A stretch of DNA of 64,000 bases, from assembly GCF_007747445.1 (NCBI RefSeq), contig NZ_CP036425.1, positions 3,332,175 to 3,396,174 of the forward strand, read 5' to 3'. Made by a program: the position numbers and the translations under genes. Source of the DNA: Poriferisphaera corsica (GTDB taxonomy: Bacteria > Planctomycetota > Phycisphaerae > Phycisphaerales > Phycisphaeraceae). A model generated the notes under the pieces. It was not told where the DNA came from. It searched no databases and saw only the letters and a program-made list of their open reading frames with translations. Shown here piece by piece: positions 49,461-59,382 of the stretch. Position 1 is the first letter of the stretch. Each line of letters begins with the position of its first letter.

Positions 49461-50264
49461 ATGAAAAAACCAATTGTTTTAAGCGCAACCGCTTTCTTGA
49501 CCGCAATCGCGACTAGCCAGCTCCTATATGCCCAGGCCTCACCAACCGTCGGCACAATCGACCCCGAAACCGGCGCCCTCCCAACATTCCAACAAATGTT
49601 CATGTTCTCGCCATACATCAACGGCGCCATCGCGGCTCTCTCCGTCATTGCCGTTCTCCTCTTCGTGGTCTACCTCCTCTCCATCAGCCAACGAACCATG
49701 GCCCCCACCGACTTCCTCGAAGAAGTCAAAAAACTCGTACTCGCCAAAAAGTATGAAGCAGCCACCGACCTCTGCCGCGCCAATCGCAACCTCTTCGTCG
49801 CGACTGTCATCCAACGTTGCTGTGAACACGCCGGTAAAGACCAGGGCGTCATCATGGACATGATCGAAACCGAAGGCAAACGCCGCGCTGACATGCTTTG
49901 GAATCGCATCAGCTACCTCGCTGACATCGCCAACGTCGCACCCATGCTCGGTCTCCTCGGCACAGTCGTCGGCATGATCACCGCATTCTTCGGCCTCGAA
50001 GAGCAAACCGGCTCCATCAACTCAACCATCCTCGCAGCCGGTGTCGGCCAAGCCATGGCAACCACCATGTTCGGCCTCGTCGTCGGCATCGCCGCCACCA
50101 TCTTCTACACCATCGTCAAGGGCCGCGCAACCCGCACACTCGCCGAAGCCGAACAAGCAATCCACACCGTCGCAGACCACATCAAGCCTGAACTTCAAAC
50201 AGCATCAGCCTCATCAACTCCGAAGAAATCGCCTCGTCGTAAATCAAACGAGGAGGATGCCTAA
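49461..50264 (+). CDS. ExbB/TolQ/MotA-family proton channel
   Basis: 267 residues with a signal peptide-like N-terminus (MKKPIVLSATAFLTAIATSQLLYAQA), as is common in planctomycetal ExbB, then TM1 (about 53-75), a cytoplasmic helix (DFLEEVKKLVLAKKYEAATDLCR) and two paired C-terminal helices with IANVAPMLGLLGTVVGMITAF and GVGQAMATTMFGLVVGIAATIFY. These form the proton-conducting core. Its stop codon overlaps the next start (TAATG), so exbD is coupled. It uses the proton-motive force to energise an envelope process. Confidence 0.93.
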   Translation: MKKPIVLSATAFLTAIATSQLLYAQASPTVGTIDPETGALPTFQQMFMFSPYINGAIAALSVIAVLLFVVYLLSISQRTMAPTDFLEEVKKLVLAKKYEAATDLCRANRNLFVATVIQRCCEHAGKDQGVIMDMIETEGKRRADMLWNRISYLADIANVAPMLGLLGTVVGMITAFFGLEEQTGSINSTILAAGVGQAMATTMFGLVVGIAATIFYTIVKGRATRTLAEAEQAIHTVADHIKPELQTASASSTPKKSPRRKSNEEDA

Positions 50265-50704
50265 TGGGATTCGCTTCAGAAAGCCGCGAACGCGCTAAAC
50301 CCGTCGTGCCACTTGCTGGCATGGTCGACATCCTCTTCCTGCTGCTCATCTTCTTCATGACCGCAAGCACACTCCGCGATCAAGAACTCCAGATGCAAAT
50401 CGCCCTACCCGGCTCAGAAAACTCACAACTCACCGCAAATCTCGACGCCATGCAGACCAGCATCACCGTCGATAAATTCAACAACATCTTCCTCGGTCAG
50501 CGCCAAGTCACCATGCCCGAGCTACGTGATGTCCTCTCGCAACTCGCCAAAGACTACCCCAACGAAACGCTCGTCATCCGTGGCGATCGCGAATCTTCCT
50601 ATGGCACCGCAATCGAAATTATCGACCTCGCCCAAGCACTTGGCATCAACGACGTCCGCGCCGCAGAAGTCAAAAAAGCCTCAGCAATCTCAAGCCTCGA
50701 ATAA
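50264..50704 (+). CDS. ExbD/TolR-family protein
   Basis: 146 residues: an N-terminal cytoplasmic segment, one transmembrane helix (about residues 16-38) with the conserved Asp (PLAGMVDILFLLLIFFM) that carries protons, and a periplasmic domain rich in beta/alpha (QTSITVDKFNNIFLGQRQVTMPELRDVLSQLAK...VIRGDRESSYG). It pairs with ExbB. The start overlaps the exbB stop by one base. Confidence 0.92.
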   Translation: MGFASESRERAKPVVPLAGMVDILFLLLIFFMTASTLRDQELQMQIALPGSENSQLTANLDAMQTSITVDKFNNIFLGQRQVTMPELRDVLSQLAKDYPNETLVIRGDRESSYGTAIEIIDLAQALGINDVRAAEVKKASAISSLE

Positions 50705-50782
50705 CGCACCCAACCACCTATTCACTGATTAATACAAAAACTCAACAACGCATCAACAACGGAATGTAAGTAACCCTCAACA

Positions 50783-50790
50783 GGGGGGGG
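50783..50790 (+). repeat. G8 homopolymer tract
   Basis: Eight Gs directly upstream of the TPR-gene start (about 18 bases before the GTG, just before its ribosome-binding site). Slippage could change the leader. Confidence 0.6.
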
Positions 50791-50807
50791 ATGATACGGG
50801 AGTCGAT

Positions 50808-53441
50808 GTGAATAATCGAAGCACACAACCTGGGATAACAATGATGAGCGGTTCTCACCGTGAGCGCTCTGCCGCTAACTTCTGTTACAGGCTACGAACC
50901 ATTTTGCGCACCTCTCTCATCGCAACCTGCCTCTCCGCAACACTCTTCGCAACCCCTGCCCTACTCCATGCGCAAAGCAGTGCCGAACTACAACAATTCC
51001 GCTTCGCCTATAAACTCATGCAACGCGGCGAAACCGATCTCGCCGAAGAAGCATTTGACCAATACATCGACGAATTCCCCCAAGGCGACAAACTCGGCGA
51101 CGCCATGTACTACCGCGCCGTCCTCTTCCAACACGAAGGTAAATCCGCCGAAGCCGCACGCGTACTCTCACGCATCGAAACGACAAAACTTGTCCCAGAA
51201 GGCGCCGTCAATCTCCTCAAAGGCCAAGTCATGCTCGATCAAAAGTGGTATGACGATGCACTCGCCACACTCGAAAAAGTCAATGTCGCAAAACTAAAAC
51301 CCGGCGCAGCCGCAGCTGCCCTCTACCTCAAAGGCCGCGCCTACCGCGGCGCCGGCAACATGCAGGCCGCAGCCGAAGCACTCCGCCAATGCGCCAACCT
51401 CGAATCTAAAGTTCAAGTCCGCGCCATGATCGAGCTCTCACGTGTCCTCGTGAAACTCGACCAAACCCCCGAAGCAATTACCACACTCGAACAATCACTC
51501 GCGCTCAACTCAATGGAATACGAAGCCGAAGCCGCACGCATGGCCGGCGACCTCTCCTACCGCATCGGTAACTACGACCAAGCTGTCGGCTTCTACGATC
51601 TCGTACTCAAAGAACACCAAACCTCCGACCAGTTCGGCCCATCCGTTCTCGGCATGCTCTGGTCTCACCACGCCGCAGGACGATACGAACTCGTACTTAA
51701 AAAACTAGAATCCACCAAAGACCTGCTCTCCGAAGCAGACCTCGGTGAAGCCTACTATGTCGCAGGCGCATCCTCCGCCGCCGCCGACCATCACGAGCAA
51801 GCCGTCCAACTTCTCGACCATGCCCTCACCCTCGTCGGCAAAGGCATCATGGAAGAAAAAGTCCTCTACCGACTTGCCGTCAGTCAATTCGAACTCGGTT
51901 GGCTCGGCGAAATGAAAACGACCGTCGCCAAACTCAAAGCCTCCTACAAAGACTCCGACCTACTCACCGATGCCATGTACCTCATCGCCGTCGCTGAAGC
52001 CGAGCAAGGCGACGCCGCCGCAGGTGCCGCCAAACTGACCGAAATGATCGATAAGGGCGACACCAACCCCTACTACCATCAAGCCGTCCTTCGTCGCGCT
52101 CGCCTCTACGAAACCAACAACGAACTCGATGCCGCCTCCGCCGACTACAAACGCTACGTCCAAGCCGGCAGCCTCGACAACCCCGCCGTCATGCGAGCCG
52201 CCCTCAAATACGTTGACCTGCGTTATCAACTCGAAGACTACGCCGAAGCCGAAGCCGTCACTCAATCCATGCTCGACCTCCGCTTCACCGACGACACCAC
52301 CCCCGCCATGACCCTCGAACCCGCCATTGAGCAAGAAGCCATGTTCCGCCTCATGCTCGCTCAAATCAAACTCAGCAAACTCCAAGACGCCATCAACACA
52401 CTCAACAATCTCGAGTCTAACCATCCGCTGCACGCCTACCGAACCTACGGCACATACTACCGCGGCCTCCTTCTCATGAGCACTGGCCAAAAAACCGAAG
52501 CCATCGAACCACTCAAAAAAGCTTCCAGCTTCGAAACGCTCCCTACAGAACTCCGCACCAATGCCCTGCGACTCCTCGGCGTCTACTACCGGCAACTCGA
52601 AGAAACCGACGCCGCCACCCAAACACTCGCTTCCATCGAATCTCTCACAGGCAAAGATTCTCTTCAGGAAGATGAGCTCCTATTCCTTGCTGAAGAACTC
52701 CAAGATGCCGCACGACAAGACACCAACAAACGCGAACGCGCACTCAGCTACCTCAATCTCCTAATCACCTCTGGCGAATCAGACCAATCACAAATCTCTG
52801 GAGGCGCCATGGCCCGTGCCCTCTACATGCGTGGGCAAATCCACCAAGACGCCGGCGAACTCAACGAAGCCAAAGACTCCTTCGCCTACGTCATCGCACT
52901 CGGCAAAGGCTATGACCTCGACGCACAAATTGATCTTGCCGTTGTCACCGCCGAACAAGGCCAATGGGAAAAAGCACTCTCTGAACTCAAAGATCTACGC
53001 TCCAGCGAAGCCTCACACATCGCCGCTAAATCACTCCTCGAATCCGCACGCATTTGGCGTAAAATCGCCCAACAAAGACTCCTCGACGACCAACCCGTCT
53101 CAGCACGCGATGCCCGCCGTGAAGCCGAAAAACTCCTCAAACGCATGGTTCTTCTCTACCCATATCAAGAACTCAATCCACTCCCACAACAAGGCTACAT
53201 CGAACTCGCTTCCGTCGTCAGGATGCTCGAAAACCCAGACGGCGAACGCGAATTACTATCTGAAGTCGCTGAAAAATATCCCGAATCTGAATACGCAACC
53301 TACGCCAAAGCGCTCCTCGCCGAACGCCTCGGCAAGCTCGGCGACGCGCAAGTCTTCACCGCAAGAATTGCAAACACATCCGACCCATACCTCGCCGCTA
53401 GAGTCCAACTTCTCACAGGTCGACTGGGGGCACTACGATGA
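50808..53441 (+). CDS. Secreted TPR-repeat protein
   Basis: 877 residues from a GTG at 50808 with CGGGAG five bases upstream. An N-terminal basic region leads into a hydrophobic signal helix (LRTSLIATCLSATLFATPALLHAQS, about 32-57). The rest is tetratricopeptide repeats throughout, with typical helix pairs such as AEEAFDQYIDEFPQGDKLGDAMYYRAVLFQHEGKSAEAARVLSRI and repeats of AxxALYxRGQ. It is likely a periplasmic scaffold. Its end overlaps the next gene by four bases (ATGA). In this operon it probably links the energised complex to a substrate. Confidence 0.85.
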   Translation: MNNRSTQPGITMMSGSHRERSAANFCYRLRTILRTSLIATCLSATLFATPALLHAQSSAELQQFRFAYKLMQRGETDLAEEAFDQYIDEFPQGDKLGDAMYYRAVLFQHEGKSAEAARVLSRIETTKLVPEGAVNLLKGQVMLDQKWYDDALATLEKVNVAKLKPGAAAAALYLKGRAYRGAGNMQAAAEALRQCANLESKVQVRAMIELSRVLVKLDQTPEAITTLEQSLALNSMEYEAEAARMAGDLSYRIGNYDQAVGFYDLVLKEHQTSDQFGPSVLGMLWSHHAAGRYELVLKKLESTKDLLSEADLGEAYYVAGASSAAADHHEQAVQLLDHALTLVGKGIMEEKVLYRLAVSQFELGWLGEMKTTVAKLKASYKDSDLLTDAMYLIAVAEAEQGDAAAGAAKLTEMIDKGDTNPYYHQAVLRRARLYETNNELDAASADYKRYVQAGSLDNPAVMRAALKYVDLRYQLEDYAEAEAVTQSMLDLRFTDDTTPAMTLEPAIEQEAMFRLMLAQIKLSKLQDAINTLNNLESNHPLHAYRTYGTYYRGLLLMSTGQKTEAIEPLKKASSFETLPTELRTNALRLLGVYYRQLEETDAATQTLASIESLTGKDSLQEDELLFLAEELQDAARQDTNKRERALSYLNLLITSGESDQSQISGGAMARALYMRGQIHQDAGELNEAKDSFAYVIALGKGYDLDAQIDLAVVTAEQGQWEKALSELKDLRSSEASHIAAKSLLESARIWRKIAQQRLLDDQPVSARDARREAEKLLKRMVLLYPYQELNPLPQQGYIELASVVRMLENPDGERELLSEVAEKYPESEYATYAKALLAERLGKLGDAQVFTARIANTSDPYLAARVQLLTGRLGALR

Positions 53442-55240
53442 GAAAACACAAACCCTACAACCCATCACTCCTCACACGCCTACCCGCACTCGCACTCATC
53501 ATCGGCATCATCGCCACACTCACACTTCACCTCGGCGCAGCGCTCTACTACTTCGACAGCCCACTCGGCTTCGTCGACCCCGCACTCCTCAACTCCGTCA
53601 ACGGCCCCGTCCGCATCAAACGCGCATCCTTCGACAAACTCATCGACGACTACACCGCTGGCGGTCAATCCAACAACCCCGGCCTAAACGACGCGCCAAC
53701 CGACCTCTCCTCGCAAGGCCAAGAACTCCTCGACAACGCGCAAATCAAAATCAACGAAACCATCGAACAGCTCGACATGCAGCTCCGCACCCCCGACGAT
53801 GACAACCTCCGCATCGACGAGCAACCCATCGAACTACCCACCTTCGAACTTCCTAATGATGTATTAGAAATCAACGATCAACTCATCGCCGATGCTGGCT
53901 TCACCGATATCGAAGACACCCAATTCGGCGCCGAAGATATCAATACACAATCCTCGCAGTCATACGCACAATCCATGCTCTCCTCCATCTCCGGCGACGG
54001 CGCACTTGGCATCGGGCCCGGCAACGGCGGCATCGGCGACAACACCGGTTACAAACGTATCGGCCCTGCAAAACAAGTCACCGCCGAACGCAACACCGCC
54101 ATTGATTCCGTCGCAGACTCATTCTCCGATCGCTCCTCAAACGCAACCGACATCCCCATCGATATGCTCATCGAAGCTCCCTTCGAGATCGACGACCCCA
54201 ACGAACTCGCCATCTTCCAAAACGCCAAAGCGCTCGACACCGACTTCGATTACCTCCTCACCCGCTACGATGGCAAAAACGAAAAATCATACTTCCAAGT
54301 CGAAGTCTCAGCTCTTCGCACACTCAAAAAACTCCCCACGATGAAGAAAGACCTCGTCTTCCTCGTCGACACCTCATCCTCAATAGACCAAGAATGGGTC
54401 AACCAGGTCATGCGTGGCATCAAGCCCTCACTCCGCATGATGAACCCCGGCGACCGCTTCAATATCGTTCTCTTCAACGAACGCATCCGCTTCTTCTCAC
54501 GTACCGGCACAGTCGACGCCACGCCCCAAAACATCGAACGTGCAGAAAAATTCCTCTGGAAAACCGAATCCAAAGGCGCAACCGATGTCAACGCAGCGCT
54601 CAGCCAAATGCTCGCCCGTGACACCGAACCCGACCGCGTCTATAACATCGTCCTCGTCTCCGATGGCATGCCAACCCGAGGTGTCATGGACACCCGCAAA
54701 CTCATCAACCTCATCACCAAGGACAATGACCTCAACGCATCTATCTACTGCATAGGCATTGGCAACAAACAAAACCGCGAACTGCTCAACTTCCTCGCCT
54801 ATCGCAACAAAGGCTACTGCCTCTTCGTCGAGCAACGCGGCCTCACCATGGACACCGTACTCGACCTCACCTCACGCCTCCGCTTCCCCATCATCAAAGA
54901 CCTCAAAGTCAACGTTGCCGGCAAGTCCGTCTCCGAAGTCTACCCCATCAACCTCGCAAACATCCATCAAAACGAGCGATTCTCAATCCTTGGCCGCTTC
55001 GCCAAACCAGACAACTTCACCATCCAAGTCCTCGGCTACAACAACGGCCAACCCGTTGATTTCACACTCAACCGCGACCTCCGCAACGCTCGCTATGGCG
55101 AAGGACAAATCGCCTACGACTGGGCCTTCTGGAAGCTCCACCATCTCTACTCTGAAATCCTCCGCCAAGGCATGACCAACGACCTCAAACTCCAGATCAA
55201 CAAACTCCGCAACCGCTTCAAAATGAAGACTGTCTACTAG
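53438..55240 (+). CDS. VWA protein with TonB-like N-terminal helix
   Basis: 600 residues. The first part has a transmembrane helix (about 12-38, LPALALIIGIIATLTLHLGAALYYF) containing a His with Thr four before it (TLTLH), a pattern like the SxxxH of TonB's membrane helix; then an acidic, Pro- and Gly-rich linker (about 60-230), and a VWA domain (about 285-500) with MIDAS DTSSS, ATDVNAAL and SDGMP. The C-terminal 90 residues are helical. By place in exbB-exbD-TPR-VWA it is probably the TonB-like energy partner. No TonB C-terminal domain is seen. Confidence 0.78.
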   Translation: MRKHKPYNPSLLTRLPALALIIGIIATLTLHLGAALYYFDSPLGFVDPALLNSVNGPVRIKRASFDKLIDDYTAGGQSNNPGLNDAPTDLSSQGQELLDNAQIKINETIEQLDMQLRTPDDDNLRIDEQPIELPTFELPNDVLEINDQLIADAGFTDIEDTQFGAEDINTQSSQSYAQSMLSSISGDGALGIGPGNGGIGDNTGYKRIGPAKQVTAERNTAIDSVADSFSDRSSNATDIPIDMLIEAPFEIDDPNELAIFQNAKALDTDFDYLLTRYDGKNEKSYFQVEVSALRTLKKLPTMKKDLVFLVDTSSSIDQEWVNQVMRGIKPSLRMMNPGDRFNIVLFNERIRFFSRTGTVDATPQNIERAEKFLWKTESKGATDVNAALSQMLARDTEPDRVYNIVLVSDGMPTRGVMDTRKLINLITKDNDLNASIYCIGIGNKQNRELLNFLAYRNKGYCLFVEQRGLTMDTVLDLTSRLRFPIIKDLKVNVAGKSVSEVYPINLANIHQNERFSILGRFAKPDNFTIQVLGYNNGQPVDFTLNRDLRNARYGEGQIAYDWAFWKLHHLYSEILRQGMTNDLKLQINKLRNRFKMKTVY

Positions 55241-55485: not shown

Positions 55486-58400
55486 GTGATTAAATCACGG
55501 CATTTTAACATGCAAACTTTGCTCACTGCATTCTGTACCTTAGCCCTAACACAAGGCGCGTACGCAGGGTTTAAAACAACCAACAACATTAACTGGACTT
55601 ACGACAATAGCAACGATACCCACTATCTCGATACCCCAAATGCCTACCTAACAATAGAAGGTTTAATATCTGGCAACCCCAGCCTAGCCATACCAGATAA
55701 AAACTTCTGGCTTAATAATTCATACACCAATAACACACACCTCACATACACTGGCACGACATCAATCAGCACCAGTAAAAAGAACTTTACCGCGATCAAA
55801 TACAACACTGCCGCTGACAAAAAAGCAACAAACAATATCAATGGCAAAATTGTTGTTGAATCATCAAATAGCGGCACAAAACTTATCAGTAATGAAATAG
55901 GTAACCTAGAGTTCAGCAACGCAAAAGGTAGTTGGTACGTCAATTCAACTTCTAGCAATGCGTATGGAGTCTATTCAACAAACGATGTCATCTTCAACAA
56001 CGATTATGACGCAGGCATACATGTCGCCGGTAACGGATACTACATTAATGGTATCTATTCGAACAAAGAACTGATCATGAATGGTAATTTCGATGGAACA
56101 ATCTCAATCGAAAGCCCATCTGGCGCATACAATTACGCCCTATATGGCAAGGACGGCATCACAATCGACGGCTATATAGGTAGTGGTTTCGCCGTCACAG
56201 GATACGCCGCCAACAAAGGCATGTACTCATTACAAGATATCTATATCGGTGGTCATTTCGTGGGATTTGCAGAAGTAACCTCAACGAATGGTTCAGCATA
56301 CTCAATACATGCAGGCAACGATTTCACATTAGATGCCCAATTAGCTGCTCTCATAAATACAAGAGGTTCTTCACAGGTCGTTGGGATCAGAGCAAATCGT
56401 TATCTTAAAATTAACGAGGGCATGAACGCAGAAGTCATATCTAACAGTGCAGGCAACCATACAGGCGGTCTTTATGTAGACAACGGTGATATCACCATCG
56501 GCTCTGCCGCTACCCCTGAAGGTATCCGCGGTTACATACATACAAACGTGCAAGGTAACTACGAATCCGACGAAGACTATGCCGCTCGTTTTGGTACAAC
56601 ATCATATTCCTATGGCATTAACGCGCAAGACCAAACCAGCAACAGCTTCAATGTTGGCAATATCACAATCTATGGCAATGTCTCAGGCGATATCGATGTA
56701 CGTTCCGGCGGTAAACAAGCCTATGGCATGATCGCCGACCGAAACATCCACATCGTCGGCGACCTTTCCGGTAAGCTCAACGCAAGCTCAAATAACAACG
56801 AAGCCTACGGCCTCTACGCGTTAAACGATATCACCATCGATGGCAGCCATACCGGCCAAACCACGGTCAGCGCGGCAGGCAGTAACGCTTCCGCTTTCTA
56901 TACCAAATCCGGCGACATCAATGTGCAAGGTTCGCTAGGCGGAACCATCTCAACCACCAGTGGCGGACAAGCAACACACAGCGTTTATTCCGGTTCCGAC
57001 ATCAACATCAATCAAAACCTATCTGCCAACATCACAACCACATCTCAAAGCCACAACACCAGCGGCCTATACGCATCCGACATCCTCACTATCGGCGGCG
57101 ACGTCACCGGTAATATCGTCACCACCAGCACCAACGGCCACCGCAGCCGCAGCCTCTACGGCGGCAAAGGCATCTCAATTGCTGGCAACGTCTCAGGCGA
57201 CATCACCTCCAAAGGTGGCGGCGGCGAGATGCGCGGCATCATGACCAACAACACCGGCAGCATCTCAATCGGCGGCGACCTCACCAGTGACTTCCTCATC
57301 GAATCAGGCGGCTCCGCCCACGCCCTCTCATCCGGCATCGACATCATCGTCGACGGTGAATATGGCGGCTCAATCAACACTTCCGGATCAGCCGACACAC
57401 ACGGCTTCCGCGCTGGTCAACACATCAACATTAAAAAAGGCATCACAGGCAGCATCACCGCCAACAGTGCCGGCGATAAAACCAGCGGTCTCTACACGAC
57501 CAACGGTGACATCACCATCGGCTCAACCGTCGCCAACGGCATCACCGGCAACATCTACGTCAACACCAAAAAGGAAAGTGAAACCGAAGAACAATACACC
57601 ACTCGACTAGCCAGCACGGTGAACGCCTATGGCATCAACGCCGAAGATCAAACCAGCAATAGCTTCAACGTCGGCAACGTCACAATCCACGGCCCCTTCT
57701 CCGGTAACATCGACGTCCGCACAGGCGGTAAACAAGCCTACGGCATCCGCGCCGAACGTGACATCAACATCAACGGCAACATCACAGGCACGATCAATAC
57801 CGATGCAGGCAGTGAAAAATCTTACGCAATTTCCGCTGACGGCGACCTGAATATTAATGGAAAGTACATGGGCACCATCACGTCCAAATCTGGAGCCGCT
57901 CATGCATACGGGTTCTATGCCGGCAACGAACTTCTTTTCAATCAGTCAGTACTAGGTTCAATTACGGCAACCAGCGGCACAACTAATGCATACGGCATCT
58001 ACGCTGATTCGGATCTTACAATTCAAGGCGATTTACGTTCCGAAATCACAACGCAATCTAGTGGCTACTATACAGGCGCTGTTTATAGCAAGGGCAATCT
58101 GAATATTCACGGCGAAGTCTCCGAGAATATTCAAACTACCAGCACAAATGGCGCATACGCTTATGGACTACATGGTAATCAATCACTATCAGTTCACAGT
58201 GTTATAGATGGCGAAATTATTGTTAACTCAAACACTGCAGCGAGAGGACTATCCACCTATGGTGATCTCTTGGTAAATGGTGGAATTGAAGGTGATTTAA
58301 TCATTACATCGCAAGGATCCGTTGAAGCAATTAGTGCAGGCCAGAAGCTCACCTTAGGAAGATTAAGTGGTGAAATTCATGCAGTAGGCACCCAAAGCGT

Positions 58401-59382
58401 CTACGCAATCAAAGCAGGTTATTTTGATAATCTTATTGTTGACAATGAAGTCAATGCATCTGCAAGCAACGGCCAAGCCTACGCAATCCACACCGCCTCC
58501 TCTTACAACCACAACGAAACCGTTAATATCAACTATGGCGTCGATGTTTACGGTGACATCCACCTTGGCAATCACAACGGCACCGGCTCACGCGATACAA
58601 TCAATTTCAAAGGGTATGGCCAATATAATGATGACCTGTACGGCGTCGAAACCATCAACATCAATCAAGGTTCTTTAACGAGTACAAATCATACTTGGAA
58701 ACTCAACCTAGAAAATTCGGAAACATCGACCCGCAACAAGTTTGTTGATGTGAACGTCAACCACGGCAAACTTGCTTCAAACGCCAACATGACAACACAA
58801 AACCTAACAATCGCAAACGACGGCGGTCTCTCCTTCGCACTCACCAACCCTACCGACGATATCGCCATCACTGTCACACAAAACACATCACTCGACGGCA
58901 GCCTCGCGCTTGAACTCACTCAAACCGTAACAGATTACGATCTCGGCGACTCATTCAAACTCATCAACGGCAGCAACCTCTCCGGCATCTTCGATACCAT
59001 TGAAAACGCAATGGTCACTGAAACCACCGGCTTGGCTGTACTCTACAATCACTTCAGCGGCAACGATCTCATCGCCCGCTTCTCAATCCTCGGCGATGCC
59101 AATCTCGATAACGTCGTTGACATGGCAGACGTCAATCTTGTCCAAGCAAACACTGGAGCCACTACCACCCAAACCTGGGTCAACGGCGACTTCAATGGCG
59201 ACGGGATCATCAACGATGTCGATATGAATATCGTGACTGCCAACTACGGTGTAGACGCAACCAACATCGTCTACAATCCAAACGGCGCCGCTACCGCACT
59301 TAGCGCAATCCCAGAACCTTCTTCACTCCTCCTCCTCGGCTCCGCCGGCATACTTCTCATTCGTCGTAAACAATCCGCATAG
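55486..59382 (+). CDS. Large PEP-CTERM/dockerin surface repeat protein (A)
   Basis: 1298 residues from a GTG at 55486 with AAAGGAG seven bases upstream; signal peptide 1-27. The body is dozens of beta-solenoid-like repeats with SxGxxYGIYA, DITIDG and GNVSGDI/GxITG phrases, resembling autotransporter or adhesin passengers. A segment of about 110 residues (about 318-430) recurs at about 655-765, with a conserved TSNSFNVGN core and GGKQAYG. The C-terminal part holds a dockerin-like pair (about 1201-1255, GDANLDNVVDMADV and GDFNGDGIINDVDM) and a PEP-CTERM tail (IPEPSSLLLLGSAGILLIRRKQSA). It is likely a calcium-binding, exosortase-anchored surface protein. Confidence 0.82.
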   Translation: MIKSRHFNMQTLLTAFCTLALTQGAYAGFKTTNNINWTYDNSNDTHYLDTPNAYLTIEGLISGNPSLAIPDKNFWLNNSYTNNTHLTYTGTTSISTSKKNFTAIKYNTAADKKATNNINGKIVVESSNSGTKLISNEIGNLEFSNAKGSWYVNSTSSNAYGVYSTNDVIFNNDYDAGIHVAGNGYYINGIYSNKELIMNGNFDGTISIESPSGAYNYALYGKDGITIDGYIGSGFAVTGYAANKGMYSLQDIYIGGHFVGFAEVTSTNGSAYSIHAGNDFTLDAQLAALINTRGSSQVVGIRANRYLKINEGMNAEVISNSAGNHTGGLYVDNGDITIGSAATPEGIRGYIHTNVQGNYESDEDYAARFGTTSYSYGINAQDQTSNSFNVGNITIYGNVSGDIDVRSGGKQAYGMIADRNIHIVGDLSGKLNASSNNNEAYGLYALNDITIDGSHTGQTTVSAAGSNASAFYTKSGDINVQGSLGGTISTTSGGQATHSVYSGSDININQNLSANITTTSQSHNTSGLYASDILTIGGDVTGNIVTTSTNGHRSRSLYGGKGISIAGNVSGDITSKGGGGEMRGIMTNNTGSISIGGDLTSDFLIESGGSAHALSSGIDIIVDGEYGGSINTSGSADTHGFRAGQHINIKKGITGSITANSAGDKTSGLYTTNGDITIGSTVANGITGNIYVNTKKESETEEQYTTRLASTVNAYGINAEDQTSNSFNVGNVTIHGPFSGNIDVRTGGKQAYGIRAERDININGNITGTINTDAGSEKSYAISADGDLNINGKYMGTITSKSGAAHAYGFYAGNELLFNQSVLGSITATSGTTNAYGIYADSDLTIQGDLRSEITTQSSGYYTGAVYSKGNLNIHGEVSENIQTTSTNGAYAYGLHGNQSLSVHSVIDGEIIVNSNTAARGLSTYGDLLVNGGIEGDLIITSQGSVEAISAGQKLTLGRLSGEIHAVGTQSVYAIKAGYFDNLIVDNEVNASASNGQAYAIHTASSYNHNETVNINYGVDVYGDIHLGNHNGTGSRDTINFKGYGQYNDDLYGVETININQGSLTSTNHTWKLNLENSETSTRNKFVDVNVNHGKLASNANMTTQNLTIANDGGLSFALTNPTDDIAITVTQNTSLDGSLALELTQTVTDYDLGDSFKLINGSNLSGIFDTIENAMVTETTGLAVLYNHFSGNDLIARFSILGDANLDNVVDMADVNLVQANTGATTTQTWVNGDFNGDGIINDVDMNIVTANYGVDATNIVYNPNGAATALSAIPEPSSLLLLGSAGILLIRRKQSA

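Follow-up and report, generated by a model that had tools for sequence, protein, structure and literature searches.

What does an ExbB/ExbD motor act on when the subunit in the position of TonB ends in a von Willebrand factor A (VWA) domain? The question is raised by a four-gene unit of Poriferisphaera corsica, located at positions 49461-55240 of the window, the 64,000-nucleotide stretch of contig NZ_CP036425.1 that was analysed. The open reading frames (ORFs) and their Pfam matches identify, on the plus strand and in this order, ExbB, ExbD, a secreted tetratricopeptide repeat (TPR) protein and a VWA protein that is anchored in the membrane. From the conserved parts we infer, as the probable reading, a dedicated proton motor that couples to and pulls on a VWA-headed arm, with the TPR protein as adaptor. 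What the sequence itself shows is the genes, their order, which residues are conserved and the fold predicted for the head; the features are as follows.

49461..50264, plus strand: exbB, proton channel subunit of the pentamer type (267 aa; Pfam MotA_ExbB, 8e-25)
50264..50704, plus strand: exbD, proton-binding subunit (146 aa; Pfam ExbD, 4.7e-24; D22 corresponds to E. coli D25)
50808..53441, plus strand: TPR protein (877 aa; GTG start; Pfam TPR models)
53438..55240, plus strand: VWA force-transducer protein (600 aa; Pfam VWA_3, 7.4e-17)
53486..53548, plus strand: TonB-like membrane helix of the VWA protein, residues ~17-37, with T27 and H31; a helix in the AlphaFold2 model
53567..54229, plus strand: linker, residues 44-264, of low model confidence and presumably disordered
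53609..53623, plus strand: D-box-like segment VRIKR, residues 58-62, starting 27 residues past H31
54233..55237, plus strand: head, residues 266-600, with hybrid-domain strands, VWA with its metal site at ~301-480, further strands and closing helices

The four genes and the two overlaps described in the first-pass annotation were confirmed: exbB and exbD share 1 base (TAATG), the TPR and VWA genes share 4 bases (ATGA), and a gap of 103 bases separates exbD from the TPR gene.

Conservation of the four-gene unit

The class sample comprised 120 genomes, and a close VWA relative (E<=1e-90) was present in six of them, the own genome included; the other five all carry exbB-exbD-TPR-VWA with one exbD each. 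When the VWA alignment was used to scan a genome collection, 194 stretches matched; 160 of these encode a relative, and the best 80 were kept and annotated with our own profiles. Among these best 80, 38 loci are of the window type: 30 hold the full ordered unit, six are cut by contig ends, and two have room but no motor alongside. The 30 full units, four of which (L062, L063, L065 and L068) are the same contigs as class-sample loci, span Phycisphaerae and other Planctomycetota, Omnitrophota, Verrucomicrobia, Kiritimatiellae and Lentisphaerae (five phylum-level groups). The first-pass annotation held that exbB/exbD being separable from the VWA gene in most genomes would speak against it; the opposite was found, the ordered four-gene unit being retained, with the motor adjoining the VWA gene and the TPR gene in the same place, in 30/32 loci not cut by contig ends. 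The remaining 42 of the best 80 loci encode VWA proteins without the unit, and 40 of these motor-less relatives were scanned for the VIT domain. In an order-level search the system was detected in 31/201 genomes at E<=1e-40, 26 of them within the window's family.

A single exbD is present in the window and in 28/30 full units. The other two, L055 and L059, carry an extra ORF between exbD and the TPR gene (L055:3909-4328 and L059:3916-4329) that matches the ExbD profile, lacks the proton-binding Asp and has a lipoprotein-like start; a second motor subunit was considered for these ORFs and set aside on those two features. After removal of ExbD ORFs of at least 220 aa, the Asp is found in 30/32 ORFs of the wider set, the two without it being these extra ORFs, and in 6/6 of the close set.

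The surroundings of the unit are less constant. When 233 flanking ORFs (>=110 aa) from 34 loci were clustered, no cluster extended beyond 5 loci. Neither promoter-like sites (3 vs 2.9 in shuffles) nor terminator-like sites (5 vs 9.3 in shuffles) were in excess. Directly downstream of the VWA gene, 55486-59382 encodes a repetitive 1298-aa protein with a C-terminal PEP-CTERM match under the Pfam cut-off. In genome G039, part of a second VWA gene of the window type is found at the edge of a contig (L050:1-501).

The VWA protein and its motor

The N-terminal helix of the VWA protein contains the motif TLTLH (T27, H31) and is preceded by basic residues, in line with the earlier claim of a TxxxH pattern resembling the SxxxH of TonB. 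In the alignment of 35 window-type homologues (A6), from which loci truncated in or before the N-terminus (L058, L069, L078 and L127) were excluded and in which the start of the L098 protein was chosen by the analyst, the helix His is kept in all 35. The residue four positions before it is Ser in 31/35, Thr in 2/35, the window among them, Val in 1/35 and Gly in 1/35. The first-pass annotation would have counted a lack of conservation of the helix His/Thr against its proposal; this was not observed, His being invariant and Ser or Thr kept in 33 of the 35, with Thr itself in only two. The motif exceeds chance: [ST]xxxH lies in a hydrophobic part of residues 1-160 in 33/35 window-type proteins vs 2/40 motor-less relatives, four of the latter (L079, L080, L089 and L128) being 5'-cut.

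Past the helix, the D-box-like segment sits at a TonB-like spacing from the His. PMC10907165 describes a TonB strand, SVTM at residues 46-49, which starts 26 residues past His20 and is captured by the ExbD dimer; the corresponding distance in the window protein is 27 residues. An alternating segment of this kind, starting 22-31 residues after the His, was detected in 18/35 rows vs a shuffle mean of 3.9 and maximum of 10 (1000 shuffles), a count that is indicative, as the first pattern was narrower and allowed at any position (20/35) before the residue classes were widened and the position fixed. The linker that follows, with a predicted local distance difference test (pLDDT) score mostly <50 in the AlphaFold2 model, is composed of 18% Asp+Glu, 8% Gly, 8% Asn and 6% Pro. 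It is long and acidic and contains Gly, as first described, with the share of Pro overstated: the window linker is better called acidic and Gly/Asn-rich, and Pro ranges from 5 to 17.5% across the 35 homologues.

The head completes the protein. The AlphaFold2 model, built with 35 sequences, has a mean pLDDT of 73, with values mostly >90 in the head, counted from about residue 270. Its elements follow the order of two strands (270-292), VWA (~301-480), strands (484-547) and helices (557-594). The metal ion-dependent adhesion site (MIDAS) is complete, with D311, S313, S315, T382 and D409 assigned by the standard motif, and these residues are invariant in 36/36 proteins, counting that of a second locus type in the same genome (L010). 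Pfam gives VWA models alone at E up to 0.01 for the window protein, and no TonB/TolA C-terminal domain was found among its matches; the proposal that a metal-binding VWA takes the place of the TonB C-terminal domain is thereby borne out.

The closest solved structure to the head is ITIH1 (PDB 6fpy), with Z 25.9 across 321 residues, and its profile matches include ITIH4 (8e-47) and ITIH1 (6e-43). The VWA of ITIH1 interrupts an integrin-like hybrid domain, which is built from residues on both sides of it, and helices come afterwards (PMC7170535). Because the order of elements equals that of ITIH1 and both ITIH1 and ITIH4 match, the head is read as a VWA inserted within a predicted integrin-beta-like hybrid domain. 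ITIH1 has an N-terminal beta-sandwich where the window protein has helix and linker. The same contrast holds for the VIT-VWA proteins (TIGR03788) and ITIH heavy chains, which share the MIDAS VWA, the Hybrid1-like domain and the closing helices, their N-terminal VIT/Hybrid2 part being replaced here by the TonB-like helix and linker. VIT was detected in 0/36 helix-bearing proteins vs 34/40 motor-less relatives, and the VWA protein scores 115 of 552 bits with TIGR03788, far under the cut-off. In such an arrangement, force would enter the head via the hybrid domain; in integrins, a review (PMC9688440) ties force to hybrid swing-out and prolonged ligand binding, which serves here as an analogy only.

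On the motor side, the ExbB residues that correspond to Ser34, Thr148 and Thr181 of E. coli are kept in 29/29 proteins, two first-type ORFs of at least 420 aa having been dropped from the count. The best NCBIfam models for ExbB and ExbD are TolQ and TolR, at scores far under the cut-offs. ExbB also has a signal-like N-terminal extension ahead of its first transmembrane helix (49461-49620); in Serratia marcescens, an ExbB with a long extension in the periplasm is reported to occur with HasB (PMC9008036). An exbB/exbD pair of Rhodopirellula baltica, which could not be linked to the present system, is described as salt-induced in PMC2754498. The TPR protein is predicted, by eye, to be exported via an N-terminal signal sequence. 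Its first part contains YbgF/CpoB-type repeats above the NCBIfam model cut-off, and its profile matches many TPR structures, none of which hints at a partner.

Proposed mechanism, published relatives and rival explanations

For stoichiometry, docking, pulling, partner and purpose, we infer the following scheme. A Ton/Tol-like 5:2 ExbB/ExbD proton motor would drive the TonB-like arm. The N-terminus of the VWA protein would lie inside, its helix leaning on ExbB by H31 and T27, and the segment about 27 residues past H31 would join the periplasmic ExbD dimer as a strand. The linker of ~220 residues could then span the periplasm, allowing the head to grip a partner by the MIDAS metal, with the TPR protein serving as periplasmic adaptor or first partner. 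Driven by proton flow, the arm would pull on its partner in the envelope, or remodel it, and this partner would not be a TonB-dependent receptor. The first-pass proposal of a proton-driven envelope machine is supported: the parts, their order and the key residues are conserved, and the coupling to the motor and the pulling keep their conditional form.

The window locus belongs to the first family of vWA force transducers published by Williams-Jones et al. in 2025 (PMC12204202). That paper describes, in the Planctomycetes-Verrucomicrobia-Chlamydiae (PVC) group, transducers with a Ser-His motif, a motor box and a vWA head, whose neighbours are TPR, tolQ-like and often paired tolR-like genes; its AlphaFold3 models place the transducer helix on the motor. 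The likeness extends to the Ser/Thr-X3-His helix, disordered linker, motor-box-like segment, vWA head and tolQ-like and TPR neighbours. The differences are one exbD here vs often a pair there, Thr for Ser in the window, a linker of ~220 residues vs ~100, and the reading of the head as VWA plus hybrid domain. In the second family of the same paper, TPH-vWA, a TolQ-like motor is likewise joined to a membrane-anchored VWA protein, but without exbD and with Asp in the helix, unlike the exbD, the helix His and the lack of a helix Asp seen here. The single exbD rule, the counts, the integrin-beta-like head, the Trp/Pro change in ExbB and the second locus were not found in the available text of PMC12204202. 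The literature search, whose coverage excluded bioRxiv, returned no other paper describing the system. With TonB-ExbB-ExbD and TolA-TolQ-TolR, the unit shares motor genes, an N-terminal [ST]xxxH helix, a strand-like segment and a periplasmic linker, and it differs from them in the VWA/hybrid head replacing the C-terminal domain, the altered Trp38/Pro190 and a genome without Plug.

Several observations weigh against a TonB-like motor pulling on the VWA arm. The Ser/Thr-His half of the TonB motif SHLS is retained in the VWA homologues and the Leu/Ser half is variable; in Ton, too, these two positions are conserved less well (PMC12215075). The D-box-like segment is missed in 17/35 rows, and residues 58-62 are not a strand in the single-chain AlphaFold2 model. 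In ExbB, the Trp38 equivalent is replaced in 29/29 and the Pro190 equivalent is kept in 9/29, with Ala in the window. In E. coli, Ser16 and His20 of TonB contact Ser34 and Trp38 of ExbB, and Trp38 contacts Pro190 (PMC12215075); as far as the residues indicate, the docking half of the TonB-ExbB contact is retained and the Trp/Pro relay beyond it differs. Two loci, L095 and L098, encode a helix-bearing VWA protein and have room but no adjacent motor. Finally, three of the six class-sample carriers (G053, G060 and G066) have Plug proteins, the domain of TonB-dependent receptors.

Among the rivals, an adhesion or gliding device, in which the motor would move a VWA head engaging a surface adhesin or track, is possible though unlikely. 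The Agl-Glt/CglB system of Myxococcus has a TolQR-like motor together with TPR and VWA proteins, the VWA protein being a surface lipoprotein adhesin, and the window unit has the same part classes. A gliding role is also raised as a possibility in PMC12204202. Two points count against such a device: the VWA head here sits on an inner-membrane arm and not on a surface lipoprotein, and the 34-locus neighbour clustering shows no adhesin gene that recurs next to the unit.

Somewhat less probable is an envelope complex of the VWA and TPR proteins that is static or resembles a chaperone and merely shares an operon with a motor serving something else. Motor-less VWA-TPR partnerships exist, as in the Bat proteins, and there are many motor-less VIT-VWA proteins whose head is similar. 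The two loci without an adjacent motor fit it as well; L098:1683-6202 retains the TPR gene next to the VWA gene, L095:6002-7852 has the VWA gene alone, and both encode a Ser-His helix. Against a static complex stand a motor-binding His that is invariant in the 35 homologues, a helix motif missing from 38/40 motor-less relatives, and a motor that adjoins the TPR-VWA pair in 30 of the 32 uncut loci.

A stand-in for Tol-Pal, in which the VWA arm would move an outer-membrane anchor and so hold or constrict the envelope, is improbable to a similar degree. The TolQ/TolR models and the YbgF/CpoB-type repeats point in its direction; the system's presence in 31 of the 201 order genomes is low for an essential task, and no pal-like gene recurs beside the unit, the genome itself not having been searched for tolB/pal.

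An energizer of outer-membrane receptors with a VWA head replacing TonB_C is very improbable: the motor and helix are TonB-like and three carriers have Plug proteins, but no Plug match was found in the own genome, G039 or G078. Plug occurs in 44/120 class-sample genomes, and since Plug-less carriers exist, TonB-dependent receptors are not required by the system, which may coexist with them. The earlier claim of a target other than these receptors fits the own genome and 2/5 other carriers; the other 3/5 have Plug proteins.

Other motor-like loci and their meaning

A second VWA-motor locus lies at ~1.093-1.100 Mb of the own genome (L010:1427-8031), with the order VWA-exbB-exbD-exbD-long partner. 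Its VWA protein has the helix motif SMGIH, with both Ser and His present, and the long partner has no Pfam match. This second-type VWA protein matches 117/120 class genomes at E<=1e-5, some rows by the VWA part only. A survey covered the own locus and the best place in 80 of the other 116 genomes, taken roughly by descending score, with 36 left out. Both exbB and at least two exbD were found in 38/41 of the own and first 40 loci, and exbB with at least one exbD in 28 of the next 40, which gives 66/81 motor-adjacent loci; at least two exbD plus the long partner were found in 57/81. The 15 misses include three that are possibly due to contig ends (L155, L182 and L223) and 12 with room but no motor, most keeping the Ser-His helix; loci with room and no exbB/exbD nearby include L198, L203, L209, L211, L214, L215, L217, L218, L219, L226 and others. 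In 51 aligned second-type proteins (A8, three ORFs of at least 460 aa excluded), Ser and His are each at least 90% conserved and the motif is present in 48/51. A phylum-wide profile search (126/149 genomes, E<=1e-15) was not used as a count, many rows matching the VWA part only.

In a quick tree of 47 VWA cores picked from larger sets (17 window-type, 15 VIT and 15 second-type), window-type and VIT heads stand together apart from the second type with support 100, and an ExbB quick tree separates window-type and second-type with support 98; the trees have long branches. In the approximately unbiased (AU) test, window-type and second-type heads as one group were not rejected (p 0.66), with a higher likelihood. 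One versus two origins of the fusion between VWA and helix were considered on this basis, and with the tree support of 100 countered by the AU result, no claim on their number is made. A further locus at ~3.142-3.144 Mb of the own genome (L011:4395-5810) places an exbD next to the gene of a 314-aa protein whose helix (ALLIH) resembles that of TonB; no exbB was found in the stretch examined, and the protein has no Pfam match.

By analogy, the arm could be a proton-driven counterpart of an integrin, a speculative idea that we consider doubtful. The motor would pull the hybrid domain, tension would open the MIDAS and strengthen the hold on a ligand in the periplasm or outer membrane as a motor-loaded catch bond, and the head would pass through cycles of grip, pull and release; the genome would then contain two such devices, with motors possibly joined to VWA heads twice.

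The usual annotation of ExbB/ExbD motors is as energizers of TonB, yet a genome without a Plug match has two motor loci with VWA heads. With its MIDAS metal site in an integrin-like fold, the head offers a handle for finding the target of the motor, and clean targets for point mutation are available in the His, the Asp and the MIDAS residues, all of them invariant. Because the second type of locus extends over most of the class sample, the question of what these motors act on is wider than one genome.

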